Source: an uncultured Bacteroidota bacterium (lineage in GTDB: Bacteria; Bacteroidota; Bacteroidia; NS11-12g; UBA9320). Taken from it: DNA of 64,000 nt. The position numbers and the translations under genes are program-made. Positions 6,228-23,836 of this stretch are shown piece by piece. Numbering within the stretch: position 1 is the first letter of the stretch; every line of letters begins with the position of its first letter. The stretch spans positions 1 through 64,000 of the forward strand of contig CAKZLB010000045.1 in the NCBI GenBank assembly GCA_937124965.1. Reading direction: 5' to 3'. The notes below the pieces were generated by a model, which did no database searches, was not told where the DNA came from, and saw only the letters and a list, made by a program, of their open reading frames with translations.

Positions 6228-7442
6228 TTATAAATACAATTTCAGTCGATTTCCAGGGTGTATCATATTGGATCTCAAATTATTCCAATCTTTAATTTCA
6301 GATACTGAACATCCATTTCTATTGGCAATTGCTTGCAGAGAATCACCCCTTTTTACGGTGTAAATGACTTCCGTTGTTAACGGTTTGTATGCTTCACTAA
6401 GCTCTAGAATTGCACCTTCTTTTTCTAGAAAAATCATTGCCTTGTCGTTTGGAAGATTGATTTCCATGGTAACAACATTTCCAGGTATTTGATCGGTTTT
6501 TAACGGTGGATTTAAGGTTCTAATTTCTTCAACCGTCATTCCAGTAATCTCAGCAATAGCTTTTAGGTTATGGTTTGGGCTACATGTAATTTTCGTTATC
6601 TCAGCATTCGGTTTTTCAATGTATGCTGGAAATATTCCGTAGTGCTCATAAAAATTCATTAAGTAAGCAACTGCAATATATGAAGGTATGTAGTTTTGAG
6701 TTTGTCTAGGTAAATAAGGATAAATCTCCCAGAAGCCAGTTTTTCCTCCAGCTTTGCGAATCGCCTTTCGAATATTGCCTGGACCACAATTGTAACTTGC
6801 AATTACAACCAACCAATCGTCAAAAACCATTGACATATCTTTAAAGTAACCAGCAGCTGCTTCGGTACTTTTTTGAATGTCACGTCTTTCGTCCTGATAT
6901 CTATCAATTTTTAAATTATATATTTTACCTGTATACGGCATGAATTGCCATAAACCAACGGCTCCAGAACGAGAAGTTGCATAAGGATTTAATGCCGACT
7001 CGATTACACTAACATATTTTAACTCTAAGGGTAATCCTTTTTTATCAAAAACGCTTTCGTATACCGGAAAATAATGATCACTTAGGGTAATCATTTGCTT
7101 AAGTTTTGCCTGCCAGTTTGTTCCGAAATAGTCAATCAAGCGTTTTACTTCAGAATTATAATCCATTGAAATTTCAAATTCCAACGTATTTACATGAGAA
7201 AAGAATGTAGCACTGTCTACTGGAATTTCGTTATCTACAAATTCGGTGATGACATCACTTAAAATTGAAGGAGTAACGTCTTCCTTTGGTGTGTTGGTTG
7301 TAGATGCAGAATTATCCAACATTTCCTTTTTGCTCAACTCCTCAGTTGAATCGGTTTTGACAACATCTTTTTCGTTTTCCGCAAACGATAGTGTAAAAAA
7401 TAACGCTAGAAATGCAGTGGATATATATTTATTGATAGTCAT
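6228..7442 (-). CDS. MltD-like lytic transglycosylase with two LysM repeats
   Basis: A 404-residue secreted muramidase. Order: signal peptide (STAFLALFFTLSFA), low-complexity linker, SLT/MltD catalytic domain (about 110-265), then two LysM peptidoglycan-binding modules (about 285-335 and 355-404). The catalytic Glu lies in VSVIESALNPYA, followed by the family motifs SGAVGLWQFMP and ASYNCGPGNI. It cleaves the MurNAc-GlcNAc bond to form 1,6-anhydro products. The second LysM is classical (VIYTVKRGDSLQAIANR). It is first in an operon with DUF4837 and purN. MltD is the nearest named family, but unlike E. coli MltD it is not a clear lipoprotein. Confidence 0.92.
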   Translation of the reverse strand: MTINKYISTAFLALFFTLSFAENEKDVVKTDSTEELSKKEMLDNSASTTNTPKEDVTPSILSDVITEFVDNEIPVDSATFFSHVNTLEFEISMDYNSEVKRLIDYFGTNWQAKLKQMITLSDHYFPVYESVFDKKGLPLELKYVSVIESALNPYATSRSGAVGLWQFMPYTGKIYNLKIDRYQDERRDIQKSTEAAAGYFKDMSMVFDDWLVVIASYNCGPGNIRKAIRKAGGKTGFWEIYPYLPRQTQNYIPSYIAVAYLMNFYEHYGIFPAYIEKPNAEITKITCSPNHNLKAIAEITGMTVEEIRTLNPPLKTDQIPGNVVTMEINLPNDKAMIFLEKEGAILELSEAYKPLTTEVIYTVKRGDSLQAIANRNGCSVSEIKDWNNLRSNMIHPGNRLKLYL

Positions 7443-7492
7443 AATCTTCTATAGATTCAAACGCACAAGTACCTTATAAATTGTCGATTTTA

Positions 7493-7500
7493 CAAAAATA
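7493..7500 (-). promoter_or_regulatory. Bacteroidota -7 element for the mltD-like operon
   Basis: Plus-strand CAAAAATA is TATTTTTG on the minus strand, matching TAnnTTTG. It gives a leader of about 45 bases before the ATG at 7442 and is the only such match in the divergent gap on this strand. I see no good -33 element. Confidence 0.4.
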
Positions 7501-7570
7501 ATTATCTATGGATGCATATATTAATAGACAACTTTCTAAATCTCAAAAATAGGATTTAGTTTCTTTAAAT

Positions 7571-7578
7571 TATCTTTG
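7571..7578 (+). promoter_or_regulatory. Bacteroidota -7 element for the ald-like gene
   Basis: TATCTTTG, an exact TAnnTTTG match, 48 bases before the ATG at 7627 in the divergent gap. The preferred TTG -33 element is not obvious. Confidence 0.5.
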
Positions 7579-7626
7579 ATACTTCACATGCAAGTTCACT
7601 TAAACTTTAATTAAACCGGTTTTCAT

Positions 7627-8853
7627 ATGGCAGATTTTTCTAAAAAGGTATGGACGGATTTAGCGAAGCAAGCAAGTCTGCAACCACAAGAAAAACTACA
7701 ATTACAAAAACAAAAGCGACACACCTTGAGTATTACAGTTCCTGCTGAAATCACGTATCAAGAGAAACGAGTTTCTCTCTCTCCACTGTCTGTTGAAATG
7801 CTGGTGAACAATGGTCATGACGTGCGAATAGAAACGAATGCTGGGAAGAAATCCAACTTTGAGGATTTAGAGTATAGTAATGCGGGAGCTCAAATTTTGT
7901 ACGACCATTCTTCTGCTTTTGAAGGTGATATTGTTTTAAAAGTAGCCCCACCAACACCTGAGGAAATAGAATTGTTGAAGCCAGGACAAACTATTTTTAG
8001 TGCGTTGCAAGTTGCCGACATGAAAAGAGATTGTTTGCTTTCAATGTGTCGAAAAAAAATAACTGCAATTGGGTATGAATATTTGTGTGATGATGCAGGA
8101 ACATTGCCGGTAATTCGAGCTATGAGCGAGATAGCTGGACGAGCATCTGTGTTAATTGCAGCTGAGTTTTTAAATAATGCTAAAAATGGGAAAGGGGAAC
8201 TAATAGGAGGTATTCCAGGCATACCACCAACTGATATCGTTATTATTGGTGCAGGGTCTGTTGGAGAATACGCGGTCAGGGCAGCCTTGGGTTTAGGTGC
8301 CCACGTTACCGTTTTCGATAACTCATTACATCGATTGCGACGATTAGAATCAAGTTTAGGTCGACGACTTTCCTCCTCAACTATTTTGCCTCATATTTTA
8401 CAGAAAGCGTTAGCCAATTGTGATGTAGCGATTGGCGCCTTGCGAAGTCCTGAAGGAAGAAGTCCGGTGGTAGTTTCAGAAGCTATGGTGCAGCAAATGA
8501 AATCAAAATCACTAATTGTAGATGTGGCGATTGATCATGGTGGCTGTTTTGAAACAAGTGAGATAACAAATCATGAGAATCCAACATTTATAAAACATGA
8601 TGTACTGCACTACTGTGTGCCTAATATAGCTTCTCGAGTTAGCCGAACTGCAAGTTATGCCTTAAGTAATATCCTTTCTCCATTAATGTTAGAAATTGGA
8701 AATGAGGGAGGATTGTATAATTATTTATGGTCTAATGAAGGGCTGCGAAAAGGCGTTTATGTATACAAAGGCAGTCTCACAAATCAAACATTGGGCGATC
8801 GATTTAACGTACCATCAAAAGAAATTGATTTTTTATTTTCTGGTAATGGGTAA
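7627..8853 (+). CDS. Alanine dehydrogenase-like protein with altered active site
   Basis: A 408-residue member of the alanine dehydrogenase/transhydrogenase-alpha family, which makes pyruvate from L-alanine with NAD+ in the true enzymes. It has about 33 extra N-terminal residues. Alignment by eye to Mycobacterium alanine dehydrogenase gives the substrate Arg (R48 in EKRVSLSP), catalytic Lys (K105 in DIVLKVAPP), NAD loop GAGSVG (208-213), catalytic Asp (D303 in AIDHGGC) and Asn (N333 in VPNIAS). The other catalytic residue, His96 of the Mycobacterium enzyme, aligns with Gln128 (FSALQVAD). The family call is secure; the exact reaction is less so. It is monocistronic, with TATCTTTG upstream and another promoter element before nusB. 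Confidence 0.85.
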   Translation: MADFSKKVWTDLAKQASLQPQEKLQLQKQKRHTLSITVPAEITYQEKRVSLSPLSVEMLVNNGHDVRIETNAGKKSNFEDLEYSNAGAQILYDHSSAFEGDIVLKVAPPTPEEIELLKPGQTIFSALQVADMKRDCLLSMCRKKITAIGYEYLCDDAGTLPVIRAMSEIAGRASVLIAAEFLNNAKNGKGELIGGIPGIPPTDIVIIGAGSVGEYAVRAALGLGAHVTVFDNSLHRLRRLESSLGRRLSSSTILPHILQKALANCDVAIGALRSPEGRSPVVVSEAMVQQMKSKSLIVDVAIDHGGCFETSEITNHENPTFIKHDVLHYCVPNIASRVSRTASYALSNILSPLMLEIGNEGGLYNYLWSNEGLRKGVYVYKGSLTNQTLGDRFNVPSKEIDFLFSGNG

Positions 8854-11325: not shown

Positions 11326-11838
11326 ATGAAAGACTTGAAAGAAACTCTTATACTAACGCATTCTGAGATTCATCAGAAAATTACGCGAATGGCTTGGCAG
11401 ATTCTCGAAAACAACTACGATGCTAATCGTATTGTTTTGATTGGTGTTGAGAAAAAAGGAAGTTTGGTTGCCGAGCTAATTTATAATGTATTGACTACGA
11501 TCACAGAGGTGTCAATCTCTATTGGTAGTGTATTTGTCGATAAGGAAAATCCAACACTAGAAAGTATAAAGCTGTCGTCAATTGATGAACTCATTGATGT
11601 AAATGTGGTGTTGATAGATGACGTATTAAATAGCGGTAAAACCTTGATGTATGCGACTTTACCAATACTTGCACAAGGCCCCAGAAAGCTACAAACTGCT
11701 ATATTAGCAAATAGAGACCATACTCGATTTCCAATCAAGGCTGATTTTGTAGGCATATCTTTGGCAACTACTCTTCAAGAGCATATTCAATTTACAAAAG
11801 ACAAATCATCTGGAGAGATGAGCGTTCATCTAATCTAG
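11326..11838 (+). CDS. Phosphoribosyltransferase family protein (PyrR-like)
   Basis: A 170-residue type I phosphoribosyltransferase. The PRPP loop is VVLIDDVLNSGKTL near residue 100, and VLIGVEKKGSLVAELI is the usual first strand-loop. Size and layout are closest to PyrR, the bifunctional uracil phosphoribosyltransferase and attenuator, but no pyrimidine gene or attenuator is nearby, so I leave the specificity open. Last gene of the nusB block. Its TAG overlaps the PorE-like stop on the other strand in the palindrome CTAG (11835-11838). Confidence 0.82.
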   Translation: MKDLKETLILTHSEIHQKITRMAWQILENNYDANRIVLIGVEKKGSLVAELIYNVLTTITEVSISIGSVFVDKENPTLESIKLSSIDELIDVNVVLIDDVLNSGKTLMYATLPILAQGPRKLQTAILANRDHTRFPIKADFVGISLATTLQEHIQFTKDKSSGEMSVHLI

Positions 11839-13760
11839 TTTCCTGTAATTTTTATTTCTGTTCTTCTATTTTGACTTCTACCCTCAGGGGTGTCGTTGGT
11901 CGCAACAGGCTGACTGCTTCCATATCCTTTATACGTCAATCGTGAAGCGTTAATTCCCTTACTGATTAGGTACGTTTGAACCGCCTTTGCTCTATCATTA
12001 GATAGCTGTGAGTTTCGTGATTCAGAACCTGTATTGTCTGTATGCCCACCAATTTCAATATGTAGTGAGGCATTTCTGGTGAGGTACTCTACCAATTGAT
12101 CTAGTTCTACATAAGATTCTGGCTTTAGATCGGATTTGTCGACCTCAAATAGTACATTCTTCATGACCATTTTAACATTTTTTTGAATTGGTTCAAGTTC
12201 AATTACCAACTCATAAGGCTTGTCTAAACTACTTTCAGACAATGAAAAATTCTCTGAATGGTAGGCATATCCCTTTGCACCAGCCTTAAACGCATAATCA
12301 CTATTCGCAGGCAAGTTTAAAATGAATTTGCCTGTTTGGGCATCGGAGTAAGTTGTTGTCACTTTATCACCCGTAGCTAAACTAAATAAGTCAATGTCTG
12401 CTTTCAGTTTCTTACCTGTAAGCTTATCTTTAACGATACCAATTACATAACTTGTTTTTTGAGGACGAGCGCCTTCGTATAAATCGATAGAGTATATATC
12501 CATTCCTCCGTAATTAGGTTCTAAACCTGTACTAGAAAAGTAAGCTTTATCACCTTTTCGATTTACTATAAAGTTCCATTCATCTCCACTGGTGTTGATT
12601 GGGTATCCTAAATTCATTGGCTTGCCCCATTTTCCGTTAAACAAACGTGTTAAATAGATATCAGACTTCCCCATTCCTGTAAGTCCTTCGGAAGTGAAGT
12701 ATAGTGTTGTACCATCATTATGAATAAACGGAAACTGCTCGTCTCCTGCAGTATTAATTTCGGGTCCTAAGTTTATCGGATTACTCCATTCATTATTTCG
12801 TTTTTTGCAATACCAGATATCTGTTCCCCCAAAACCACCTGGTCTGTTGCTGGCAAAAAACAGCGTGAAGCCGTCTGCAGAAATACTAGGCTGACTTTCC
12901 CATTCTCGTGAGTTCACAGGCTGACCAAGATTCGTCGGTTTAGTCCATTCGTTACCTTCTCTGGTTGTTAACCAAATGTCGCATCGTCCAACTCCGCCTT
13001 CTCGACCGCAGGCTGTAAAGAAAAGATATTTTCCATCTGGAGAAGCGCTAAAAGCACCTTCGTTTTCTCGCGTGTTTACCGGACTTCCAAGGTTTTTTGA
13101 AGATGACCATTTCCATTCTCCGTCTTGTTCAGCCAAATCACTATAAAACAAATCTTCATTTTGCTCATATATGTTTAGACTAGCATCACGTCTGGTGAAA
13201 TACAACGTATTTTCTTCGATATTCAATCCAGGGAAATATTCTTCCTGTTCTGTATTGACATCTTTTCCAAGATTTTTTGGATCAAACGGCACTGGGTTGT
13301 TGAATGCCTCACGGGCAAATTCTGCACTTCTAATATTTTTTTGAACTTCCGCTCGTTTATCCCCAACGCCAACTATTGGAAGGAGTCGGTTAAGGATTCG
13401 AAGGCAGTCGTCGTATTCATTTAAATCAAAATGAATCTGGCTTAAGTCTGTTAATGCATAAACATGGTCAGGATTGATTGCTAAAATTTGTTGAAAGCTT
13501 GTTTTTGCTTCTTCCAACCTTCCAAGACCACGCAGAATATTACCTTTTAGATCATATGCTTCAATGTATTGTGGGTCTTTAGCAAGTGCTTTGTCAAGCA
13601 ATTCAAGAGCTTTTTCATCTTCAAGCAAGTTGTGCATTTTTAATGCTTCGCCAAAGAGCATGTAGGCTTTTTTATTTTCAGTACCTCGAGGGATAACATT
13701 TTTGCTCCCGCCACAGGCAGACAATACAACCATGCAAATCAGAATAATTTTGGTTCTCAT
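11835..13760 (-). CDS. PorE-like lipoprotein: TPR, PD40 propeller, CRD, OmpA
   Basis: A 641-residue outer-membrane lipoprotein. Order: lipobox LSAC with Cys16; TPR repeats (about 30-160, EKALELLDKALAKDPQYIEAYD and similar); a PD40 beta-propeller (about 195-425) with repeats such as YLFFTACGREGGVGRCDIW, LFFASNRPGGFGGTDIWY and LYFTSEGLTGMGKSDIYL; a carboxypeptidase-regulatory fold (about 430-510); and an OmpA peptidoglycan-binding domain (about 520-641, IEIGGHTDNTGSESRNSQLS and DRAKAVQTYLISKGI). This is the domain set of PorE, which links the T9SS to the wall in Porphyromonas. Whether it is the true orthologue or one of several paralogues cannot be settled here. It is third in a run with DUF3127 and a phosphoesterase. 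Confidence 0.82.
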   Translation of the reverse strand: MRTKIILICMVVLSACGGSKNVIPRGTENKKAYMLFGEALKMHNLLEDEKALELLDKALAKDPQYIEAYDLKGNILRGLGRLEEAKTSFQQILAINPDHVYALTDLSQIHFDLNEYDDCLRILNRLLPIVGVGDKRAEVQKNIRSAEFAREAFNNPVPFDPKNLGKDVNTEQEEYFPGLNIEENTLYFTRRDASLNIYEQNEDLFYSDLAEQDGEWKWSSSKNLGSPVNTRENEGAFSASPDGKYLFFTACGREGGVGRCDIWLTTREGNEWTKPTNLGQPVNSREWESQPSISADGFTLFFASNRPGGFGGTDIWYCKKRNNEWSNPINLGPEINTAGDEQFPFIHNDGTTLYFTSEGLTGMGKSDIYLTRLFNGKWGKPMNLGYPINTSGDEWNFIVNRKGDKAYFSSTGLEPNYGGMDIYSIDLYEGARPQKTSYVIGIVKDKLTGKKLKADIDLFSLATGDKVTTTYSDAQTGKFILNLPANSDYAFKAGAKGYAYHSENFSLSESSLDKPYELVIELEPIQKNVKMVMKNVLFEVDKSDLKPESYVELDQLVEYLTRNASLHIEIGGHTDNTGSESRNSQLSNDRAKAVQTYLISKGINASRLTYKGYGSSQPVATNDTPEGRSQNRRTEIKITGN

Positions 13761-16406: not shown

Positions 16407-16414
16407 TATCTTTG
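16407..16414 (+). promoter_or_regulatory. Bacteroidota -7 element at the BNR gene start
   Basis: TATCTTTG, an exact TAnnTTTG match, ending three bases before the GTG I chose as start (16418). If used, the transcript would start at or very near the initiation codon. Confidence 0.4.
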
Positions 16415-16417
16415 AAT

Positions 16418-18517
16418 GTGACGTTTCGAAAATCATTTATTTTAATTCTGCTTAGCGTATTCTTCGCGGCATTGTCTTTTTCTCAATCCGTGGCTCCAGA
16501 ACATCAATGGCGTTCTATAGGGCCACATGCATTACCTATTGGTACAGCCGATTCTGGACAGTGGACTGCCAATGGTGTTGGCTGGATAGAGAGTTTAGCG
16601 TTGGCTAAGAATAAGGAAAAACGATTGTATGCCGGAAGTAATGTTGGTGGTTTATGGATGTCAAATAATGGTGGAGAATCTTGGGAGTTCAGATTTGATG
16701 TTGAACGTATATGCGGAGTTTGGGATATTCTAATGGATGGAAAAAGCAAACGTAAACTTTGGGTTGCTACAGGGACTAATACATGGGATAATAAATGGGG
16801 TCATGGTATTTTGTATTCTAAAAATTCTGGTAAGTCATGGCGTAAAACCAGTTTAAGCTTTACACCAAATGATGCAGTTTGTATGTATGGTATTGAACGA
16901 AGTATTGTAAACAAAAAACTGTTCTTTGCTTGCTCGACGACCGACGTTTATAGAAGTACAGATAAAACCAAAACATGGGAGAACGTTTTGGACCATGATA
17001 ATAAAGCCAGAATGAATTTTCGACATTTATTAACGCACAATTCCAACCAAGACCGAGCAGTAGTGTCTGGATCAGAATTGTTTCTGACAACAGATCAAGG
17101 AGCAACCTGGCACCCACAAAGTTCAAAATTTAGCTTTCAAAAAGACAACAACTTACGTGATTCGTTACCTACACGATTTGCAGTAAGTTTAAATCCACAG
17201 AATAACGATCAGCTTATGGTCGTATACAATTACAATCGAATGAGTTACATTGACCGTTCGGATGATTTTGGAATGACATGGTATAATGTTTTAAAAAATC
17301 GTGATTTTGATCGAGTAGATATTAACCATGCTGAGATAGCATGGCATCCGTCAGATAGCAATGTAATTTTTGTCGGAAGTGTGCGATTGTATAAGTCAAT
17401 TAATCAAGGAAAATCATTTGACCTTGTGTCTAATCCGGCATGGGCAACGTCTCAGTTTATGCACGACGATATTCGTAGCATTACGTTTTCGAAAAATGAA
17501 AATATGTGGGTTGGAAACGATGGCGGAATCTCGTATAGTACGGATACTGCAAAATCATGGATGACTCTTTATAGCCATGGTTTAACGGCTTCTCAATTCT
17601 ATGATATTGCCGTTGATAATGGCAGGGTAGTAGGCGGTTGTCAAGATATGTCGACCATGATATATCAAAACAATACTTGGTACAATACTTCAGTGGTTTA
17701 CGGTGATGGAGGTGTTAATTTGATTATGGGTGACACATTATTCATTATGCAAAATGGTATGCGCATCCGACGCGGAACGTTTGCGAATGAGAACTGGGAT
17801 GTTATATATACACCTTTCAGGCCTAATCGATTTAAATACCCATTTGTAAAAAGTCCTCTTGATGCAACAAAGATTTGGGCAGCAGATCATGATATTTGGG
17901 AATTAGGCCAAAACAAACGATGGGCAAATCGAACCAAAGATGTGCCACATGGCTTTACAAAAATTGTAGCACTTGACGTTTCTGACAAAACAGGTAAAAC
18001 GGTTTATTTTGCTAAAGATCAACCAACTTGGAATCCTGCAAAAGAAGGAATGGTAGGCAAGTTATACAAGGGAACTTATGATACGGAAAACTACAAATGG
18101 AACGATATTACGGCAAATTTGTCCATCTTAGCTTGGCGAGAAATTACCAGCATCGTGTCTAATCCGAATAATCCAGATGAAGTATATGTTAGCTTTTATG
18201 GTTTTGATGATGGAGAATCTAGACATCGAGTTTATCGTAGTATTGATGGAGGGTCTACGTGGAGTAATTTTTCAGAGGGTCTGCCCAATTTGAATGCGCT
18301 AAAGTTACTTCCGGTTGGTAAAGAATTTGTTTTATTTCTAGCAACCGACGAAGGCGTTTTTTATCGACCAAAGCAAGCCACTAGCTGGATTAAATTGACA
18401 AATGGATTCATCAATGCTCACATTATGGATATTGAGTATGATGTTACGAATCATACATTATATGCTGCAACTTTTGGCAATGGTGTTTGGTTGTTGCCTT
18501 TAGACTTTATTAAGTAA
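16418..18517 (+). CDS. Secreted BNR/sortilin-like beta-propeller protein
   Basis: A 699-residue exported protein. GTG 16418 gives the clean signal peptide RKSFILILLSVFFAALSFSQS; TTG 16412 would add two residues and lies inside a promoter-like element. The mature part is a chain of Asp-box/BNR blades: MSNNGGESW, YSKNSGKSW, LTTDQGATW, RSDDFGMTW, KSINQGKSF and YRSIDGGSTW. It resembles the VPS10/sortilin-type propellers of many Bacteroidota surface proteins. Unlike the BNR protein at 25527, it ends at the propeller (GNGVWLLPLDFIK) with no T9SS sorting domain, so it may be periplasmic or leave by another route. Function is unknown. Confidence 0.8.
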   Translation: MTFRKSFILILLSVFFAALSFSQSVAPEHQWRSIGPHALPIGTADSGQWTANGVGWIESLALAKNKEKRLYAGSNVGGLWMSNNGGESWEFRFDVERICGVWDILMDGKSKRKLWVATGTNTWDNKWGHGILYSKNSGKSWRKTSLSFTPNDAVCMYGIERSIVNKKLFFACSTTDVYRSTDKTKTWENVLDHDNKARMNFRHLLTHNSNQDRAVVSGSELFLTTDQGATWHPQSSKFSFQKDNNLRDSLPTRFAVSLNPQNNDQLMVVYNYNRMSYIDRSDDFGMTWYNVLKNRDFDRVDINHAEIAWHPSDSNVIFVGSVRLYKSINQGKSFDLVSNPAWATSQFMHDDIRSITFSKNENMWVGNDGGISYSTDTAKSWMTLYSHGLTASQFYDIAVDNGRVVGGCQDMSTMIYQNNTWYNTSVVYGDGGVNLIMGDTLFIMQNGMRIRRGTFANENWDVIYTPFRPNRFKYPFVKSPLDATKIWAADHDIWELGQNKRWANRTKDVPHGFTKIVALDVSDKTGKTVYFAKDQPTWNPAKEGMVGKLYKGTYDTENYKWNDITANLSILAWREITSIVSNPNNPDEVYVSFYGFDDGESRHRVYRSIDGGSTWSNFSEGLPNLNALKLLPVGKEFVLFLATDEGVFYRPKQATSWIKLTNGFINAHIMDIEYDVTNHTLYAATFGNGVWLLPLDFIK

Positions 18518-18523
18518 CCATAC

Positions 18524-20362
18524 TTACTGAATTTCTGGTCTCAGTATCCAAACGTTCGCATATATTTTTTTTGCGGCATAATACGCTTTCATCGCTTCAC
18601 CATGAGTGGTCCCAGCATAAGTTCCAACTCTGTAGGCACCTTTTTTCTCGCTTTTTATTATTTCTATGTTTGGAAGTTGAGGTAACCATTTTTCATAATA
18701 CCCTTCAGCAACACTTTTTGTTGGAGAGGACCCATAGATGATATAATAATTTGATGAACTACTAGAAATAACTGGATCGTTGGTTGTTTCAATAGGTTTG
18801 GTAGGATGCGCAGCTGTGGTCGGTTCGAAAGGTTTTGGTTCTTCTTTAATTTCTCGTGGTTGTGGATCAATATGCTTAGTAACGGTTATTTGTGGCTCTT
18901 TTTTCTGCCCTGCATTAACCATAGTTTTTACTTCATTAAGCATAATTATTAATGGCTTGTTATCTAATGTCTTAAGGTCAAGCTCAAATTTATTCATTTC
19001 ATATCCTGGTTTGAACGCTTCTACCATCCATGTTTGTGTTTCTTCTGGTAGGTTAATACCGAATGAACCATCGCTTTGTGTAGATTTAAAATGACCTTGA
19101 GCTACATATGACTTAGAAAAAAGAACTCGAACATCTTTTATTGGTTTTGCGTCTGCTGACAATACTTTGCATTTAAGGTAATAGCTTCCACTCGACTCTG
19201 TGAGCAATGTATCAGTGGTCTGTATTTCTTCAGAAGTTTTAGCTATTGAATTAACTGTAGTTGAAGAATAAATCCCAATATCAAATCCATTATCACGAAT
19301 TACTACCGTATTGTTAGAAGGGGAGGGGAGAACAGCAAGATCATTAAACTTTGAGTTAATGGCTAAAGGCAATGTGGTAACTGTTTGAAATGTCCAATCT
19401 GTGGTGTAAACATCATATCCACCTTTGCCTGGATACCCATTACTACTAAATGCAAAACTACCGTTGACAATAGATGGGCAAATTTCATTTTTATCCGTGT
19501 TGATGTCTTTTCCTAAGTTGAGCACACTAACAACCTTATGTTTAGAGACCTTAGCTTCATAAATGTCATAGTATCCATTCCCGCCACTTTTGTCGCTAGA
19601 AAAGTATAACATGCCATTTACATAAAGTGGAAATGCATAGTTGGCGCTTGGTTCGCCTAATACGAGCTCCTTAGCCTTTGACCACTTGTTTTTCTTTCGT
19701 TCAACATAAAAAATTCCGAATGTATTGTCTTCTTTTCTCATTGAATAGTAGAAGGAGTTCGGTGTGTTCGCTTCAGTATAATTTCCTATATGATTCAATG
19801 TTTCTTTTGGGAAGTTTAGTTGTTCGGAATTCTCTAAAGATTCAACGTTACTTAGTGGGATTATGCACGTTCCTTTTTGGCATAACTGAATAGAACCATT
19901 GGCTTTGGCATTTCCATAAATAATGGTTTGAGGGTGGATTCGTTTAAGTTCTGTACCTACTTCTGAGTTGTTTGACTCCCATAAACTCGAAAAAGTGCTT
20001 ACACCTGTGCGTTCGGTATAAATCTTAGAGAACTCTTCAGCCAATTGGGTTTTACCATTGTTCCTCAGACTAATGGCAAGTGCTTTAAAATCAAGTGAAC
20101 TACAAATAGGTTGCTGAATAACCTTTCGATAATAGTTTTCTGCCTCTTTATAATTGTCTAGTTGATAATAATTTCGGGCTAAGTTTAATAAATAAAACGA
20201 CTGATCTGGTTTGTTTTTTAATTGAGCTTTTACTGCGTTAATTTCATTTTCGATGCTTCTTTTGCCAAAAGCAAGTTCGGGCAATTGAGCAGATGAAATA
20301 TGAGTTAATAAGAAGAGGAAGCCTATGAAGTTTAGCTTCATAAACGATGTTGTTAGTTTCAT
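18524..20362 (-). CDS. TPR-PD40-CRD protein with C-terminal SPOR domain
   Basis: A 612-residue exported protein. ATG 20341 (MKLNFIGFLFLLTHISSA) is an equally good start with a cleaner signal peptide. Order: TPR region (about 25-110, SFYLLNLARNYYQLDNYKEA); PD40 propeller blades (about 215-330, MLYFSSDKSGGNGYYDIY, FAFSSNGYPGKGGYDVY); a regulatory beta-sandwich (about 395-475); a Pro/Glu-rich linker; and a SPOR-like domain (about 535-612, NYYIIYGSSPTKSVAEGYY, then GAYRVGTYAG). SPOR domains bind peptidoglycan strands stripped of stem peptides. This is the PorE layout with SPOR in place of OmpA. Last gene of the operon with a phosphohexomutase and DUF2279. Confidence 0.75.
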   Translation of the reverse strand: MKLTTSFMKLNFIGFLFLLTHISSAQLPELAFGKRSIENEINAVKAQLKNKPDQSFYLLNLARNYYQLDNYKEAENYYRKVIQQPICSSLDFKALAISLRNNGKTQLAEEFSKIYTERTGVSTFSSLWESNNSEVGTELKRIHPQTIIYGNAKANGSIQLCQKGTCIIPLSNVESLENSEQLNFPKETLNHIGNYTEANTPNSFYYSMRKEDNTFGIFYVERKKNKWSKAKELVLGEPSANYAFPLYVNGMLYFSSDKSGGNGYYDIYEAKVSKHKVVSVLNLGKDINTDKNEICPSIVNGSFAFSSNGYPGKGGYDVYTTDWTFQTVTTLPLAINSKFNDLAVLPSPSNNTVVIRDNGFDIGIYSSTTVNSIAKTSEEIQTTDTLLTESSGSYYLKCKVLSADAKPIKDVRVLFSKSYVAQGHFKSTQSDGSFGINLPEETQTWMVEAFKPGYEMNKFELDLKTLDNKPLIIMLNEVKTMVNAGQKKEPQITVTKHIDPQPREIKEEPKPFEPTTAAHPTKPIETTNDPVISSSSSNYYIIYGSSPTKSVAEGYYEKWLPQLPNIEIIKSEKKGAYRVGTYAGTTHGEAMKAYYAAKKIYANVWILRPEIQ

Positions 20363-20387: not shown

Positions 20388-21329
20388 TCAGAATTGAATA
20401 AAATTAAAATCAAGTTTATTTGAGTTTCCATCAAATGAGACACCTGGAAGTGGAAACTTTAAACAATTCAACAGTTTGAAACTAATTCTTAGTGCCTTAC
20501 TATTGGTTTTTATGCGGGTTAAATCAATGTCAGGAGCCAAATAAAACTGTCTTCCTTGTGGAATATGTGTATAATCGAATTGAACGCCATCACGCATAAA
20601 TAGGTTGTCATCAGCGCTAACAAACCCATCGATGCCATAACCCACAGCAATATTTAACCAAGATGGAAACTTGCTTTCTTCTTTCAAAAATGATTTTATA
20701 TTGCCCGATAACCAGTAGGTCTGACCGTTGTAATCTTTGAACAGATTTTCCATAAAGGATGTTCCTAGTAGTTCTGGACGAATATCCGCATATTGACTAG
20801 GTTGAAACGATAATTTCATCCAGACGCGTTGTTCATCCCACAATAAACTTTGTCCAATAACGAGCCCAGCTCCCAGTGTATTTGCCACAATATCTCCGGT
20901 TGAAGCTCCCCACTCTTTAGAGAATCCATCAAAAATTTCAATCCCAGTTTGAATAAAAAAACCATATGAACCACCAATGATAGATGCAGTTCTATGTGAA
21001 TATCCTGCCCATTTTAGCATGTCAATTCCCACAACTCCTTCGTAGTAACAGCTATACGCATGCCCTACTTTATCCATTTGGTTCCAATCGCGATTGTCGT
21101 TATGAAAGTGGAATTTGGTTAATGGGTAATCTTTGTACCACAGGTTATATAAACCAAACATAGACGCACCGTACGCCGCAGAGTTTCCAATCAACGTAAT
21201 TTTTTTTCGCTTCGACATTTTGGTTTTCGAAACGATAGAATCTGATTGTGCGATAGCATTATAGGAAATGCTAAAACAAAGAGTTATCAGAAAAAGAAGG
21301 CTACGCAAGTATCGTGGCTTTTGTTGCAT
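20388..21329 (-). CDS. DUF2279 family envelope protein
   Basis: A 313-residue protein with a signal peptide (LRSLLFLITLCFSISYNAIAQ) and the DUF2279 signature: MDKVGHAYSCYYEG, then GFFIQTGIEIFDGFSKEWGAS and DIVANTLGAGLVIGQ. The family is an uncharacterised Bacteroidota envelope group with glycine-zipper-like membrane segments and a beta-rich C-terminus. The ATG at 21329 lies 29 bases inside the upstream phosphohexomutase; later starts would cut the signal peptide, so I keep the overlap, which implies coupled translation. Confidence 0.8.
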   Translation of the reverse strand: MQQKPRYLRSLLFLITLCFSISYNAIAQSDSIVSKTKMSKRKKITLIGNSAAYGASMFGLYNLWYKDYPLTKFHFHNDNRDWNQMDKVGHAYSCYYEGVVGIDMLKWAGYSHRTASIIGGSYGFFIQTGIEIFDGFSKEWGASTGDIVANTLGAGLVIGQSLLWDEQRVWMKLSFQPSQYADIRPELLGTSFMENLFKDYNGQTYWLSGNIKSFLKEESKFPSWLNIAVGYGIDGFVSADDNLFMRDGVQFDYTHIPQGRQFYLAPDIDLTRIKTNSKALRISFKLLNCLKFPLPGVSFDGNSNKLDFNFIQF

Positions 21330-22704
21330 CTAATATCTCGAAAGCAGATGTAGAATCTGATGATTCTGCATAAACACGTAAAACGGGCTCCGTGCCACTT
21401 GGACGAATCATCACCCACTGATCATTGCCTAAATGAAACTTAAATCCATCAATATCTTCTGTAGACTCTACTTGGTAGTTGCCAAACGCTTTATACGTAC
21501 CGTTTTTACAATTTTCAACGATTTCTAATTTTTTAGATTCTTCTAATTTCAAGTCATATCGCTCAACAGCAAACGAACCAACTATTTCGTATACTTCATC
21601 GATTAACTCGTCTAAGGATTTACCAGTTTTAGCCATAAACTCCCAAATAACTAGTCCAATCCAAACACCGTCTCGTTCTGGAATATGTCCCTTAATTGCA
21701 ATTCCTCCAGACTCTTCACCACCAATCAGCACATCGTCTTCAACCATTATGTCACAGATGTATTTGAACCCAATTTTGGTTGTTTGTTGTTCAAGACCAA
21801 AATGATTACACAGTTTCTTGATACGGTCAGTGCAGCTAAAGCTAGTTACAACTTTTCCGCTTAGTCCCTTATGGTTATGTAAATAGTTAATCAGCAATAA
21901 AATAATATGGTGAGAGTCGATAAATTTACCTGTGCTATTGTAAAGCCCAACTCTATCTGCATCTCCATCTGTAGCAAGACCACTGTCGATATCTCCTGCC
22001 ATCTCAATCATTGTGCTGAACTCTTGTAAGTTTTTATGAATTGGTTCAGGTGCTTGGCCGTCAAAACCGGGGTTATACTCGCAATGTAAAAAAGTAGCAT
22101 CTGGAAGTAGTCTTCGCACTATGTCTTGTCCAGCGCCATACATCGCGTCGTATGCAAGTTCAAGTGCTCCACTGCGCATAGTTTTCATATCAAAACTACG
22201 CTCAACGTGATCGTAATACATGGTTTCCATATCAACGATTTCGACCATACCGTTGGCTTTATACGTCTCGTATGAATCGAAACCAATTACATTATTGTCT
22301 TGTATATGATTTTCAATTTTTTGAACGTCTTTTGGGCTTGCAGGCCCTCCGTAATTAGCTTTTATTTTAAATCCATTGTACGATGGTGGGTTATGACTTG
22401 CAGTAATGACGATACCCGCACCTGCTTTATTTGTGCTCGTAGTTAACGAAACCATTGGTGTGCTTACAAAATGTTCAGACACTTGGCATTTAATACCTTG
22501 TGAAGCAAACACTTCTGCTGTCGCTTCCATAAACATTTGTCCACCGAACCGACAATCGTATCCAATCACTACAGTTTTTTCTAATCCACTTTCAATTAAC
22601 CATTTTGCTGTAGCTAGGGTCACACGTCTCACATTTTCAACGGTATAATCTCGTGCGATTATTTCTCTCCAACCGTCTGTTCCAAATTTGATTTGATATG
22701 CCAT
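21301..22704 (-). CDS. Phosphoglucomutase/phosphomannomutase family enzyme
   Basis: A 467-residue alpha-D-phosphohexomutase. Motifs in order: KFGTDGWREI near the N-terminus; the phosphoserine loop TASHNPPSYNG; the metal loop DGDADRVG; the sugar loop GEESGG; and the phosphate-binding loop IRPSGTEPVLRVY. It interconverts hexose 1- and 6-phosphates and so feeds nucleotide sugars to envelope polymers. Whether it prefers glucose, mannose or glucosamine phosphate cannot be read from motifs alone. One base follows the upstream secreted-protein gene, and 29 bases overlap DUF2279, so all are one operon. Confidence 0.93.
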   Translation of the reverse strand: MAYQIKFGTDGWREIIARDYTVENVRRVTLATAKWLIESGLEKTVVIGYDCRFGGQMFMEATAEVFASQGIKCQVSEHFVSTPMVSLTTSTNKAGAGIVITASHNPPSYNGFKIKANYGGPASPKDVQKIENHIQDNNVIGFDSYETYKANGMVEIVDMETMYYDHVERSFDMKTMRSGALELAYDAMYGAGQDIVRRLLPDATFLHCEYNPGFDGQAPEPIHKNLQEFSTMIEMAGDIDSGLATDGDADRVGLYNSTGKFIDSHHIILLLINYLHNHKGLSGKVVTSFSCTDRIKKLCNHFGLEQQTTKIGFKYICDIMVEDDVLIGGEESGGIAIKGHIPERDGVWIGLVIWEFMAKTGKSLDELIDEVYEIVGSFAVERYDLKLEESKKLEIVENCKNGTYKAFGNYQVESTEDIDGFKFHLGNDQWVMIRPSGTEPVLRVYAESSDSTSAFEILDATKATILA

Positions 22705-22705
22705 T

Positions 22706-23836
22706 TTATTCTATTGTCTTTAGTAAATTAGGTTCCTTATATTTAATTTTATTCCATGGCTTTTCAGGCAACGCAATTGCAATGTCTTCAGCTTCATGAG
22801 CATAAATAGGCTCTGAATTTATTCGTTTTATTGTGTACTTGAAATTCTTATCTCTTATAAATTCATGAAGTGGTTTAAACTGAACTAGAATCTGTTTATG
22901 TTCCATGTACGAGATTGGGATTCTTTTTAACGGCTTCCCATTAATAAATACTTGAATTAGATTCGGAACATACGTTATAACTCCACACTCGTCTTTTAAC
23001 CATGTTTCGGTAACATCTACACGTGTCACAATAAGTTCCGAGCTGTCTGTTTGTGAAATTTCGCTTTCGCTTTCAGCTGCGTAAACTGACCTATTGTTTT
23101 GATAAAATGTTTGGATTGACTGGCATAACCAATAACTGCCAGTTGTGTTATCGACACTAGGATAAACGAAATACTCAATGTCCTTAGCTGGTTGTATGAT
23201 ATATTGATTCGTTTTAATTTTCGGTGAATTGAAAATTTGCTCCTTTATTTCAAAAGCTTTAGATGGATTCTTTACTAAATCAAGCGTTCCGAATTTTGCA
23301 ATGTTGAACTGATAAACCTTACTATTTAGTGCTTGCCAAAAGGTAATATTGCTACTTCCATTTATTGTTGCTGGAATTATTTTTGACGATAGCAATGTTT
23401 TTACTTCAAGAGCATCAATATATCCAAAATTGAATTTTTCATTAGATTGATTTCTCGAGAAAAATGAGAAACCGATTATCTCTGACTCAAATTTCTTTTT
23501 ATACAAGCGCCAGTATTCATAAATAAACAAGTCTTCACTTTCGACAAATCGAATTCCGTTCTGAGCTTCCATTTTTAAAAATGCACCACTACTTATTTTA
23601 ACTTTTTTGGCCGGAGAATCCCAAAGTGTAATTTTTTCAGAGACAATCTTTTCGTAAAAAAGAGCGTATGAAGATTCAACAAGATTAAACCCAACCGTGT
23701 CGTTTTGATTGTGTTTGTTTACTTGAATAATGGTAGGTGTATAATCGAAACCTTTCCCGAAAACCATGTCGCTAAATAGCAAGCTAACTATAATTAGCAA
23801 TGCTTTGGGTATAATGGATTTCGTTATTTGAATCAA
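22706..23836 (-). CDS. Unknown secreted protein heading the phosphohexomutase operon
   Basis: A 376-residue protein with a signal peptide (SIIPKALLIIVSLLFSDMVFG). I do not recognise a family. The N-terminal half has a Tyr/Lys-rich alpha-beta stretch (YALFYEKIVSEKITLWDSP, then YIDALEVKTLL); a middle part is Ser/Asn-rich; the C-terminal part repeats strands such as VITYVPNLIQVFINGKPLKR. It ends with a short basic-proline tail. The T9SS gliding protein GldN was considered, because of the segment around SEKITLW, and not supported. It is one base upstream of the phosphohexomutase gene, so an envelope role is likely but unproven. Confidence 0.65.
   Translation of the reverse strand: MIQITKSIIPKALLIIVSLLFSDMVFGKGFDYTPTIIQVNKHNQNDTVGFNLVESSYALFYEKIVSEKITLWDSPAKKVKISSGAFLKMEAQNGIRFVESEDLFIYEYWRLYKKKFESEIIGFSFFSRNQSNEKFNFGYIDALEVKTLLSSKIIPATINGSSNITFWQALNSKVYQFNIAKFGTLDLVKNPSKAFEIKEQIFNSPKIKTNQYIIQPAKDIEYFVYPSVDNTTGSYWLCQSIQTFYQNNRSVYAAESESEISQTDSSELIVTRVDVTETWLKDECGVITYVPNLIQVFINGKPLKRIPISYMEHKQILVQFKPLHEFIRDKNFKYTIKRINSEPIYAHEAEDIAIALPEKPWNKIKYKEPNLLKTIE

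Follow-up and report, generated by a model that had tools for sequence, protein, structure and literature searches.

Scaffold proteins of the PorE type are thought to hold the type IX secretion machine (T9SS) to the cell wall, and OmpA domains bind stem peptides. A stretch of 64,000 nucleotides from an uncultured Bacteroidota bacterium (assembly GCA_937124965.1, contig CAKZLB010000045.1), hereafter the window, encodes two scaffolds of this general build, one with an OmpA end and one (PD40-SPOR) with a SPOR-like end. An earlier note on the sequence saw in the second a swap of the wall-binding module that could direct the scaffold to septal or freshly cut peptidoglycan. The questions raised by this locus are whether the C-terminal end is a SPOR domain, whether it would bind glycan in the known manner, and what such a scaffold may do in the envelope. 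The relevant features are the following.

18524..20362, minus strand: PD40-SPOR protein, whole open reading frame including the stop codon (612 aa; 15 further orthologues; alignment A1)
20288..20362, minus strand: putative type I signal peptide, residues 1-25, without lipobox (from the sequence, cleavage between HISSA and QLPEL placed by eye)
19973..20281, minus strand: TPR-like helical region, residues 28-130 (weak Pfam TPR matches; helices in the AlphaFold2 model)
19250..19951, minus strand: PD40 beta-propeller, residues 138-371 (PD40 E 0.0012; NCBIfam PorE model, 84.2 bits on 212-344; VIA-align)
18938..19186, minus strand: CarboxypepD_reg-like beta sandwich, residues 393-475 (Pfam E 0.0068; model strands 393-475; E 2.8e-8 in orthologue L011)
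18755..18925, minus strand: low-confidence, probably flexible linker, residues 480-536 (pLDDT <50 over 480-529)
18527..18754, minus strand: divergent SPOR domain, residues 537-612 (orthologue Pfam matches, profile-profile comparison, AlphaFold2, VIA-align)
18737..18739, minus strand: Ile542 codon, at the position of a glycan-contacting Gln, RlpA Q270 (joint alignment, FtsN row, VIA-align register)
18629..18631, minus strand: Arg578 codon, beta-3 arginine and probable remnant of the SPOR basic patch (invariant in 16/16)
20388..21329, minus strand: DUF2279 protein, upstream neighbour after a 25 bp gap (Pfam 1.7e-9; adjacent in 7/14 loci)
21301..22704, minus strand: phosphohexomutase, phosphoglucosamine-mutase-like, upstream neighbour (Pfam PGM_PMM; TIGR03990 297 bits, cut-off 439)
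11835..13760, minus strand: PD40-OmpA lipoprotein, PorE/CHU_0125-like (OmpA E 9e-26; CHU_0125 304.6 and PorE 303.8 bits, both under cut-off)
16412..18517, plus strand: VPS10/BNR propeller protein, facing the PD40-SPOR gene in convergent orientation here and in most loci (Sortilin-Vps10 8.6e-21; same segment in 11/14 loci)

All Pfam matches of the window PD40-SPOR protein were sub-threshold (the best TPR value was E 6.5e-5, the PD40 and CarboxypepD_reg values being those listed), and no OmpA domain was matched by Pfam. Among NCBIfam models, PorE (cut-off 600) was joined by CHU_0125 (77.9 bits, cut-off 620), the matched part being the propeller. The full-length AlphaFold2 model derived from A1 (mean pLDDT 77) displayed helices, a propeller ending at residue 371, a sandwich and then the C-terminal domain, with residues 480-529 disordered. 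For the propeller, the highest VIA-align scores were to GH43-type propellers (Z up to 16.7), and TolB reached Z 12.7. Foldseek with the full-length model reached only the propeller and the sandwich, and phmmer against PDB sequences returned chance TPR-like designs only. Taken together, Pfam, the model and VIA-align revealed the PorE-type order of TPR, propeller and regulatory fold; with the SPOR-like end described below, the architecture first read from the translated frame was thereby borne out.

Identification of the C-terminal domain drew on orthologues and on structure. PF05036 did not match the window protein even at E up to 5, but 7 of the 16 orthologue C-termini matched it (E up to 10, best E 4e-7; the window copy not among them), and full-length L011, from genome G012, exceeded the curated cut-off (26.5 versus 21 bits, residues 516-586). 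A PF05036 search of the genomes recovered L011 independently as well (G012:C62, 30.8 bits). When a profile was made from 29 SPOR domains of relatives, with the PD40-SPOR family excluded, L011 was found at E 3.5e-8. The window copy was borderline by itself: it reached E 0.024, its best stretch being 536-612, and the top one among 320 shuffled proteins reached 0.043. A 13-bit filter had reduced 31 candidate loci to these 29, removing L048 and L059; L054, a member of the PD40-SPOR family, had been left out beforehand. In profile-profile comparison, the PD40-SPOR C-terminus matched the 29 domains with 95.4% probability over 68 columns. The SPOR profile A2 found no SPOR chain among PDB sequences; a search with the broader profile A3 gave CwlC (2.3e-6, in a split and out-of-register match) and FtsN (5.3e-5).

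Folded alone by AlphaFold2, the domain gave a pLDDT of 92.5 and the order strand-helix-strand-strand-helix-strand (βαββαβ). The best five of 50 VIA-align rows were all SPOR domains, namely RlpA (Z 8.2 and 8.1), CwlC (7.5), DedD (7.0) and DamX (6.2), the next row being at 5.0. For this model VIA-align was clearer than Foldseek, which returned nothing with E up to 0.001 and ranked CwlC second and RlpA 13th. Besides the fold core, the orthologues kept an Ala-Gly pair and an invariant Trp605. The predicted fold is thus the RNP-like one of SPOR domains and not another, starting at residue 537 and not at 530 as initially proposed. According to these models, the PD40-SPOR C-terminus is a SPOR domain in fold that has diverged in sequence: it shares the fold of the RlpA, CwlC, DedD and DamX domains at 8-20% identity, but lacks the Gln and Phe of the glycan site.

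This difference bears directly on ligand binding. According to PMC6895207, denuded glycan is held in RlpA by the side chains of Q270, R302 and R309, by R311 in a basic patch and by stacking on F274, with many further contacts made through the main chain; Q270 is described there as highly conserved among SPOR domains of known structure, and the glycan-site Gln with the full basic patch is common in the family without being universal. Among the 16 PD40-SPOR orthologues, the Q270 position was occupied by Ile (10) or Val (6) and never by Gln, and the F274 position, read by eye from the joint alignment, by Ser, Thr or Ala. The register at Q270 was backed by the FtsN row of the A3 search and by the ranges aligned by VIA-align. 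The first beta-3 arginine, R578, was kept in 16/16, and the second beta-3 arginine position, two residues further on, carried Gly in 13, Ala in two and Val in one. Of the other 29 SPOR domains from relatives, those in proteins shorter than 250 aa had the Gln in 10 of 14 cases, against 0 of 15 for longer proteins, which were mostly barrel-fused; the barrel-fused domains presented Tyr or Asn where R578 stands. As judged from these alignments, PD40-SPOR shares its Gln loss with this lineage's SPOR proteins of the outer-membrane type, among them the barrel protein L001 of the window's own genome.

Since the Gln and Phe contact residues are lost, the role of SPOR domains on denuded glycan at division sites, which the earlier note had carried over, is not transferable to the PD40-SPOR protein, even though the SPOR-type fold itself stood. 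A scaffold sent to the septum or to freshly cut wall by binding of denuded strands would be compatible with this fold and with the one basic-patch arginine found throughout the family, and binding might survive side-chain loss if, as PMC6895207 indicates for RlpA, contacts are mostly made by the main chain. On the other hand, Gln, Phe and the second arginine are replaced in every orthologue, and the small classical SPOR proteins of relatives, in which Gln is largely retained, are separate and better septal candidates in this lineage. Septal targeting is therefore unproven and, at the level of these residues, rather disfavoured; we consider it distinctly unlikely. The same substitutions could also mean that the domain gave up peptidoglycan contact and that its fold now serves as a module for protein-protein docking or dimerisation. 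Loss of ligand residues in all 16 proteins next to a kept fold core, Trp605 and Ala-Gly pair would fit such a module, as would the barrel-fused SPOR domains of relatives, with neither Gln (15 of 15) nor Arg. Its weak points are the invariance of R578, the location of the domain at a free C-terminus behind a flexible linker, which is the place of the OmpA wall module in PorE, and the binding of wall glycan by the SPOR domains treated in the cited literature. Docking is a possible function, albeit a doubtful one.

Export and lipidation were assessed by eye and by regular expression, so that lipid status and location are predictions. True N-termini were missing in two of the 16 orthologues; among the remaining 14, the window copy counted, 13 gave no lipobox match, and the single match (L020) lay too early in the protein and is probably irrelevant. 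The signal peptides mostly ended in AQLPEL-like motifs. A periplasmic location is predicted from these features. For the neighbouring PD40-OmpA proteins, a lipobox was found by the same kind of search in 7 of 10, two more appearing lipoprotein-like by eye and one not.

Conservation of the locus was compared over 14 loci, i.e. the window and the flanks of 13 of the 15 orthologues, G013 and G015 being left out because of short contigs. The PD40-OmpA gene was on the PD40-SPOR segment in 12 of them; the L104 contig stopped before reaching such a gene, and none was seen over 19 kb in L096. The window does have the operon with phosphohexomutase and DUF2279, but this pair was upstream of PD40-SPOR in only 7 of the 14 loci (codes g1, g10 and g7); a flavoprotein of about 400 aa, HI0933-like by Pfam in L099 only, stood there instead in six (g8, g2 and g5), and L105 was cut off. 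The operon thus represents a local arrangement, while PD40-SPOR and PD40-OmpA are an old pair. A 376-aa protein (22706-23836, minus strand), with no significant Pfam match, keeps its place in the operon ahead of the phosphohexomutase and diverges fairly fast (49-54% identity within the genus). In L093 (genome G035), two small proteins with the T9SS sorting domain Por_Secre_tail were inserted near the PD40-SPOR gene (6548-8059, minus strand).

The 15 further orthologues, found by searching the taxonomic order, all came from the window's own family (code f1), so that PD40-SPOR, window included, was present in 16 of 38 f1 genomes and in six of ten genera. In family f2 (70 genomes), the listed matches extended over no more than the propeller or the parts close to it. 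In alignment A1 the whole protein was conserved: the orthologues shared 22-41% identity with the window copy, and invariant positions lay in the propeller and among the C-terminal 75 residues. Within the genus, identity to the window was 36-40% for PD40-SPOR, compared with 76-78% for PD40-OmpA, 70-77% for DUF2279 and 80-82% for the phosphohexomutase. Omega values, which are rough because synonymous changes were near or past saturation, were 0.065 for PD40-SPOR versus 0.018 for PD40-OmpA in the pair L094/L095, and 0.131 versus 0.054 in the pair L099/L101 (0.097 for the SPOR part alone). PD40-SPOR is under purifying selection over its whole length and changes more quickly than the genes beside it.

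How far this protein belongs to the T9SS was evaluated against known components. PorE (PG1058) of Porphyromonas gingivalis is built likewise from TPR, a five-bladed propeller, a carboxypeptidase-regulatory fold and a C-terminal wall-type module (PMC5053529 and PMC9143113); its OmpA module binds peptidoglycan (PMC7192894) and, as a lipoprotein, it bridges the outer-membrane barrel PorP to the wall (PMC9143113). Unlike PorE, the PD40-SPOR protein has SPOR and not OmpA_C, carries a signal of the signal peptidase I and not of the lipoprotein type, falls far below the PorE model cut-off (84 against 600 bits) and is not universal where the T9SS occurs. Its propeller and regulatory domain also resemble the CHU_0125 family of Cytophaga hutchinsonii, as does the window protein at 11835-13760; CHU_0125, a Pal-like lipoprotein needed for outer-membrane integrity according to PMC5891637, differs from PD40-SPOR, which is without OmpA. 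The neighbour at 11835-13760 does end in OmpA, with TPR and PD40 and a weak CarboxypepD_reg match (0.035) in Pfam. The comparison with PorE drawn for it held for this end only in part, given its 302 bits to the PorE model versus 430 for the genome's best PorE candidate, L131 (G000:C32:125162-126997), both under the cut-off of 600. In L131, a frame of 887 aa, OmpA is followed by a long tail.

SprA was present in the window's genome and in 35 of 38 f1 genomes, genera that lack PD40-SPOR among them; all 22 f1 genomes of good quality had it. PorP_SprF was present in 37 of 38, with seven matches in the window's genome. Since SprA is found in 35 of the 38 f1 genomes and PD40-SPOR in 16, the latter does not belong to the T9SS core and is no more than an accessory of the machine. 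One such accessory would be a wall anchor for T9SS cargo, that is, a PorE analogue serving one class of PorP-like barrel and its type B cargo. A complex of PorE, PorP and PG1035 and six F. johnsoniae porP-like genes adjoining porE-like genes, both reported in PMC9143113, offer a model for it; the seven PorP_SprF matches and the Por_Secre_tail genes of L093 are in keeping with it, and fast evolution would fit a changing partner. Nevertheless, no PorP-like gene was adjacent in the inspected loci, where neighbours were of the housekeeping kind (SSB, phosphodiesterase, phosphohexomutase), and SprA occurs in genomes without PD40-SPOR. A role restricted to such cargo is thus considered unlikely.

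Concerning origin, a quick tree of 76 propeller regions placed the 16 PD40-SPOR proteins in a clade of their own (SH-aLRT 98), separate from the f1 OmpA clade and from the other PD40 proteins, and a recent swap from the neighbouring OmpA gene was rejected on this ground. An AU test of a joint clade with the f1 OmpA proteins did not reject it, nor did it confirm it (p 0.168), a value with which an old swap from an OmpA protein is compatible; a joint clade with the SPOR proteins of family f7 was not rejected either (p 0.35). Of the proposed swap, what stands is that SPOR takes the place held by OmpA in PorE-like proteins, while derivation from the neighbour received no support from the tree.

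Similar combinations were present elsewhere in the phylum. In family f7, L085/L141 and L142 have the same TPR-PD40-CarboxypepD_reg scaffold with two SPOR stretches (Pfam E 1.9e-13 and 4.3e-16) and no OmpA match; they keep the glycan-site Gln in the tail, and the f7 SPOR proteins form a clade separate from the PD40-SPOR family in the propeller tree. L144 was similar, with one weaker SPOR match (6e-5) and no Pfam sandwich at E up to 0.001, and L156 of the same family had no Pfam SPOR, PD40 or sandwich match at that threshold. Two f68 proteins, L146 and L148, carry a C-terminal SPOR (E 1.4e-7 and 7.5e-7) as does the window protein, but have retained OmpA after TPR, PD40 and CarboxypepD_reg; they are a possible intermediate for OmpA-to-SPOR exchange. 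In L081 (f6), SPOR (1.3e-5) precedes the propeller and OmpA follows it. L087 (f6) shows the same order with an OmpA end, its SPOR being under the Pfam cut-off. Exchange of OmpA for SPOR on the PD40 scaffold is real and recurrent in Bacteroidota, and no description of the PD40-SPOR combination was found among the entries listed from the open-licence literature. The f68 proteins scanned all had OmpA, whether or not Pfam detected SPOR. In L149, L153 and L155, OmpA was present and Pfam gave no SPOR match with E up to 0.001. As for rejected candidates, L022 (G024) is unproven as a second PD40-SPOR type (C-terminal score 6.5-8.4 bits, no Pfam SPOR), and L069, in which a SPOR-like tail was suspected by eye, had OmpA, whereas Pfam gave no SPOR match with E up to 0.1.

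The A2 profile matched 23 of 395 Bacteroidota-phylum genomes at E up to 0.01, the window's genome counted; by eye, none of the matched frames outside f1 was PD40-like, in a narrow scan by which the f7 proteins were not recovered. The window's genome also encodes two PorP_SprF barrels with a C-terminal SPOR domain lacking the glycan Gln, L001 (G000:C32:104738-106030, Pfam E 1.1e-7) and L004 (G000:C13:174365-176275, E 3e-4), each joining a barrel and a wall-type module in a single chain, which means that SPOR does occur here in T9SS-type outer-membrane proteins. L002 (G000:C39:63768-63959) and L129 (G000:C76:3620-3805) are outer-membrane barrels (DUF5723 and OMP_b-brl, respectively) that carry thrombospondin type 3 repeats and terminate in a SPOR-type domain, that of L129 being the closest to the window's in the same genome (37 bits to A2). 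In code f25, L107 and L119 appeared secretin-like by eye, with a C-terminal SPOR-type domain.

Our preferred reading, held tentatively and at somewhat less than even confidence, is that PD40-SPOR is a soluble periplasmic scaffold on the PorE plan that tethers an outer-membrane or T9SS-associated partner to the wall. The protein would be exported by Sec, cleaved by signal peptidase I and not lipidated; its TPR and propeller would hold a fast-changing partner, presumably of the outer-membrane or T9SS-associated class, and the SPOR domain, on its flexible linker, would hold the cell wall. Peptidoglycan is the likely ligand in view of the fold, the position of the domain and the kept arginine. Because the conserved Gln and Phe are lost and one basic-patch Arg is kept, an altered glycan specificity is probable, not strictly for denuded septal strands; the partner would be tethered along the wall and the septum would not be marked. 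Such a tether is favoured by the SPOR fold, the four-module order of PorE, purifying selection, R578 in 16/16, the presence of SprA and PorP_SprF in the genome and its PorP-SPOR fusions L001 and L004, as well as by the PD40 proteins of related families with SPOR alone or OmpA plus SPOR. Against it, loss of Gln and Phe could mean zero glycan binding, and no PorP gene was found beside PD40-SPOR among the inspected neighbours.

A broader proposal, speculative and rather unlikely in this general form, is that among the envelope proteins of Bacteroidota, on PD40 scaffolds and on PorP/SprF-type and other barrels, one class of SPOR domains has given up the Gln for denuded glycan and become a general tether between the outer membrane or T9SS and the wall, a job done elsewhere by OmpA; PD40 scaffolds with OmpA, with OmpA plus SPOR and with SPOR alone would then record the exchange. 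Should OmpA and the glycan-directed SPOR be exchangeable as wall modules, anchoring could be retuned with the machine left unchanged, and SPOR domains would then also serve a purpose other than cell division.
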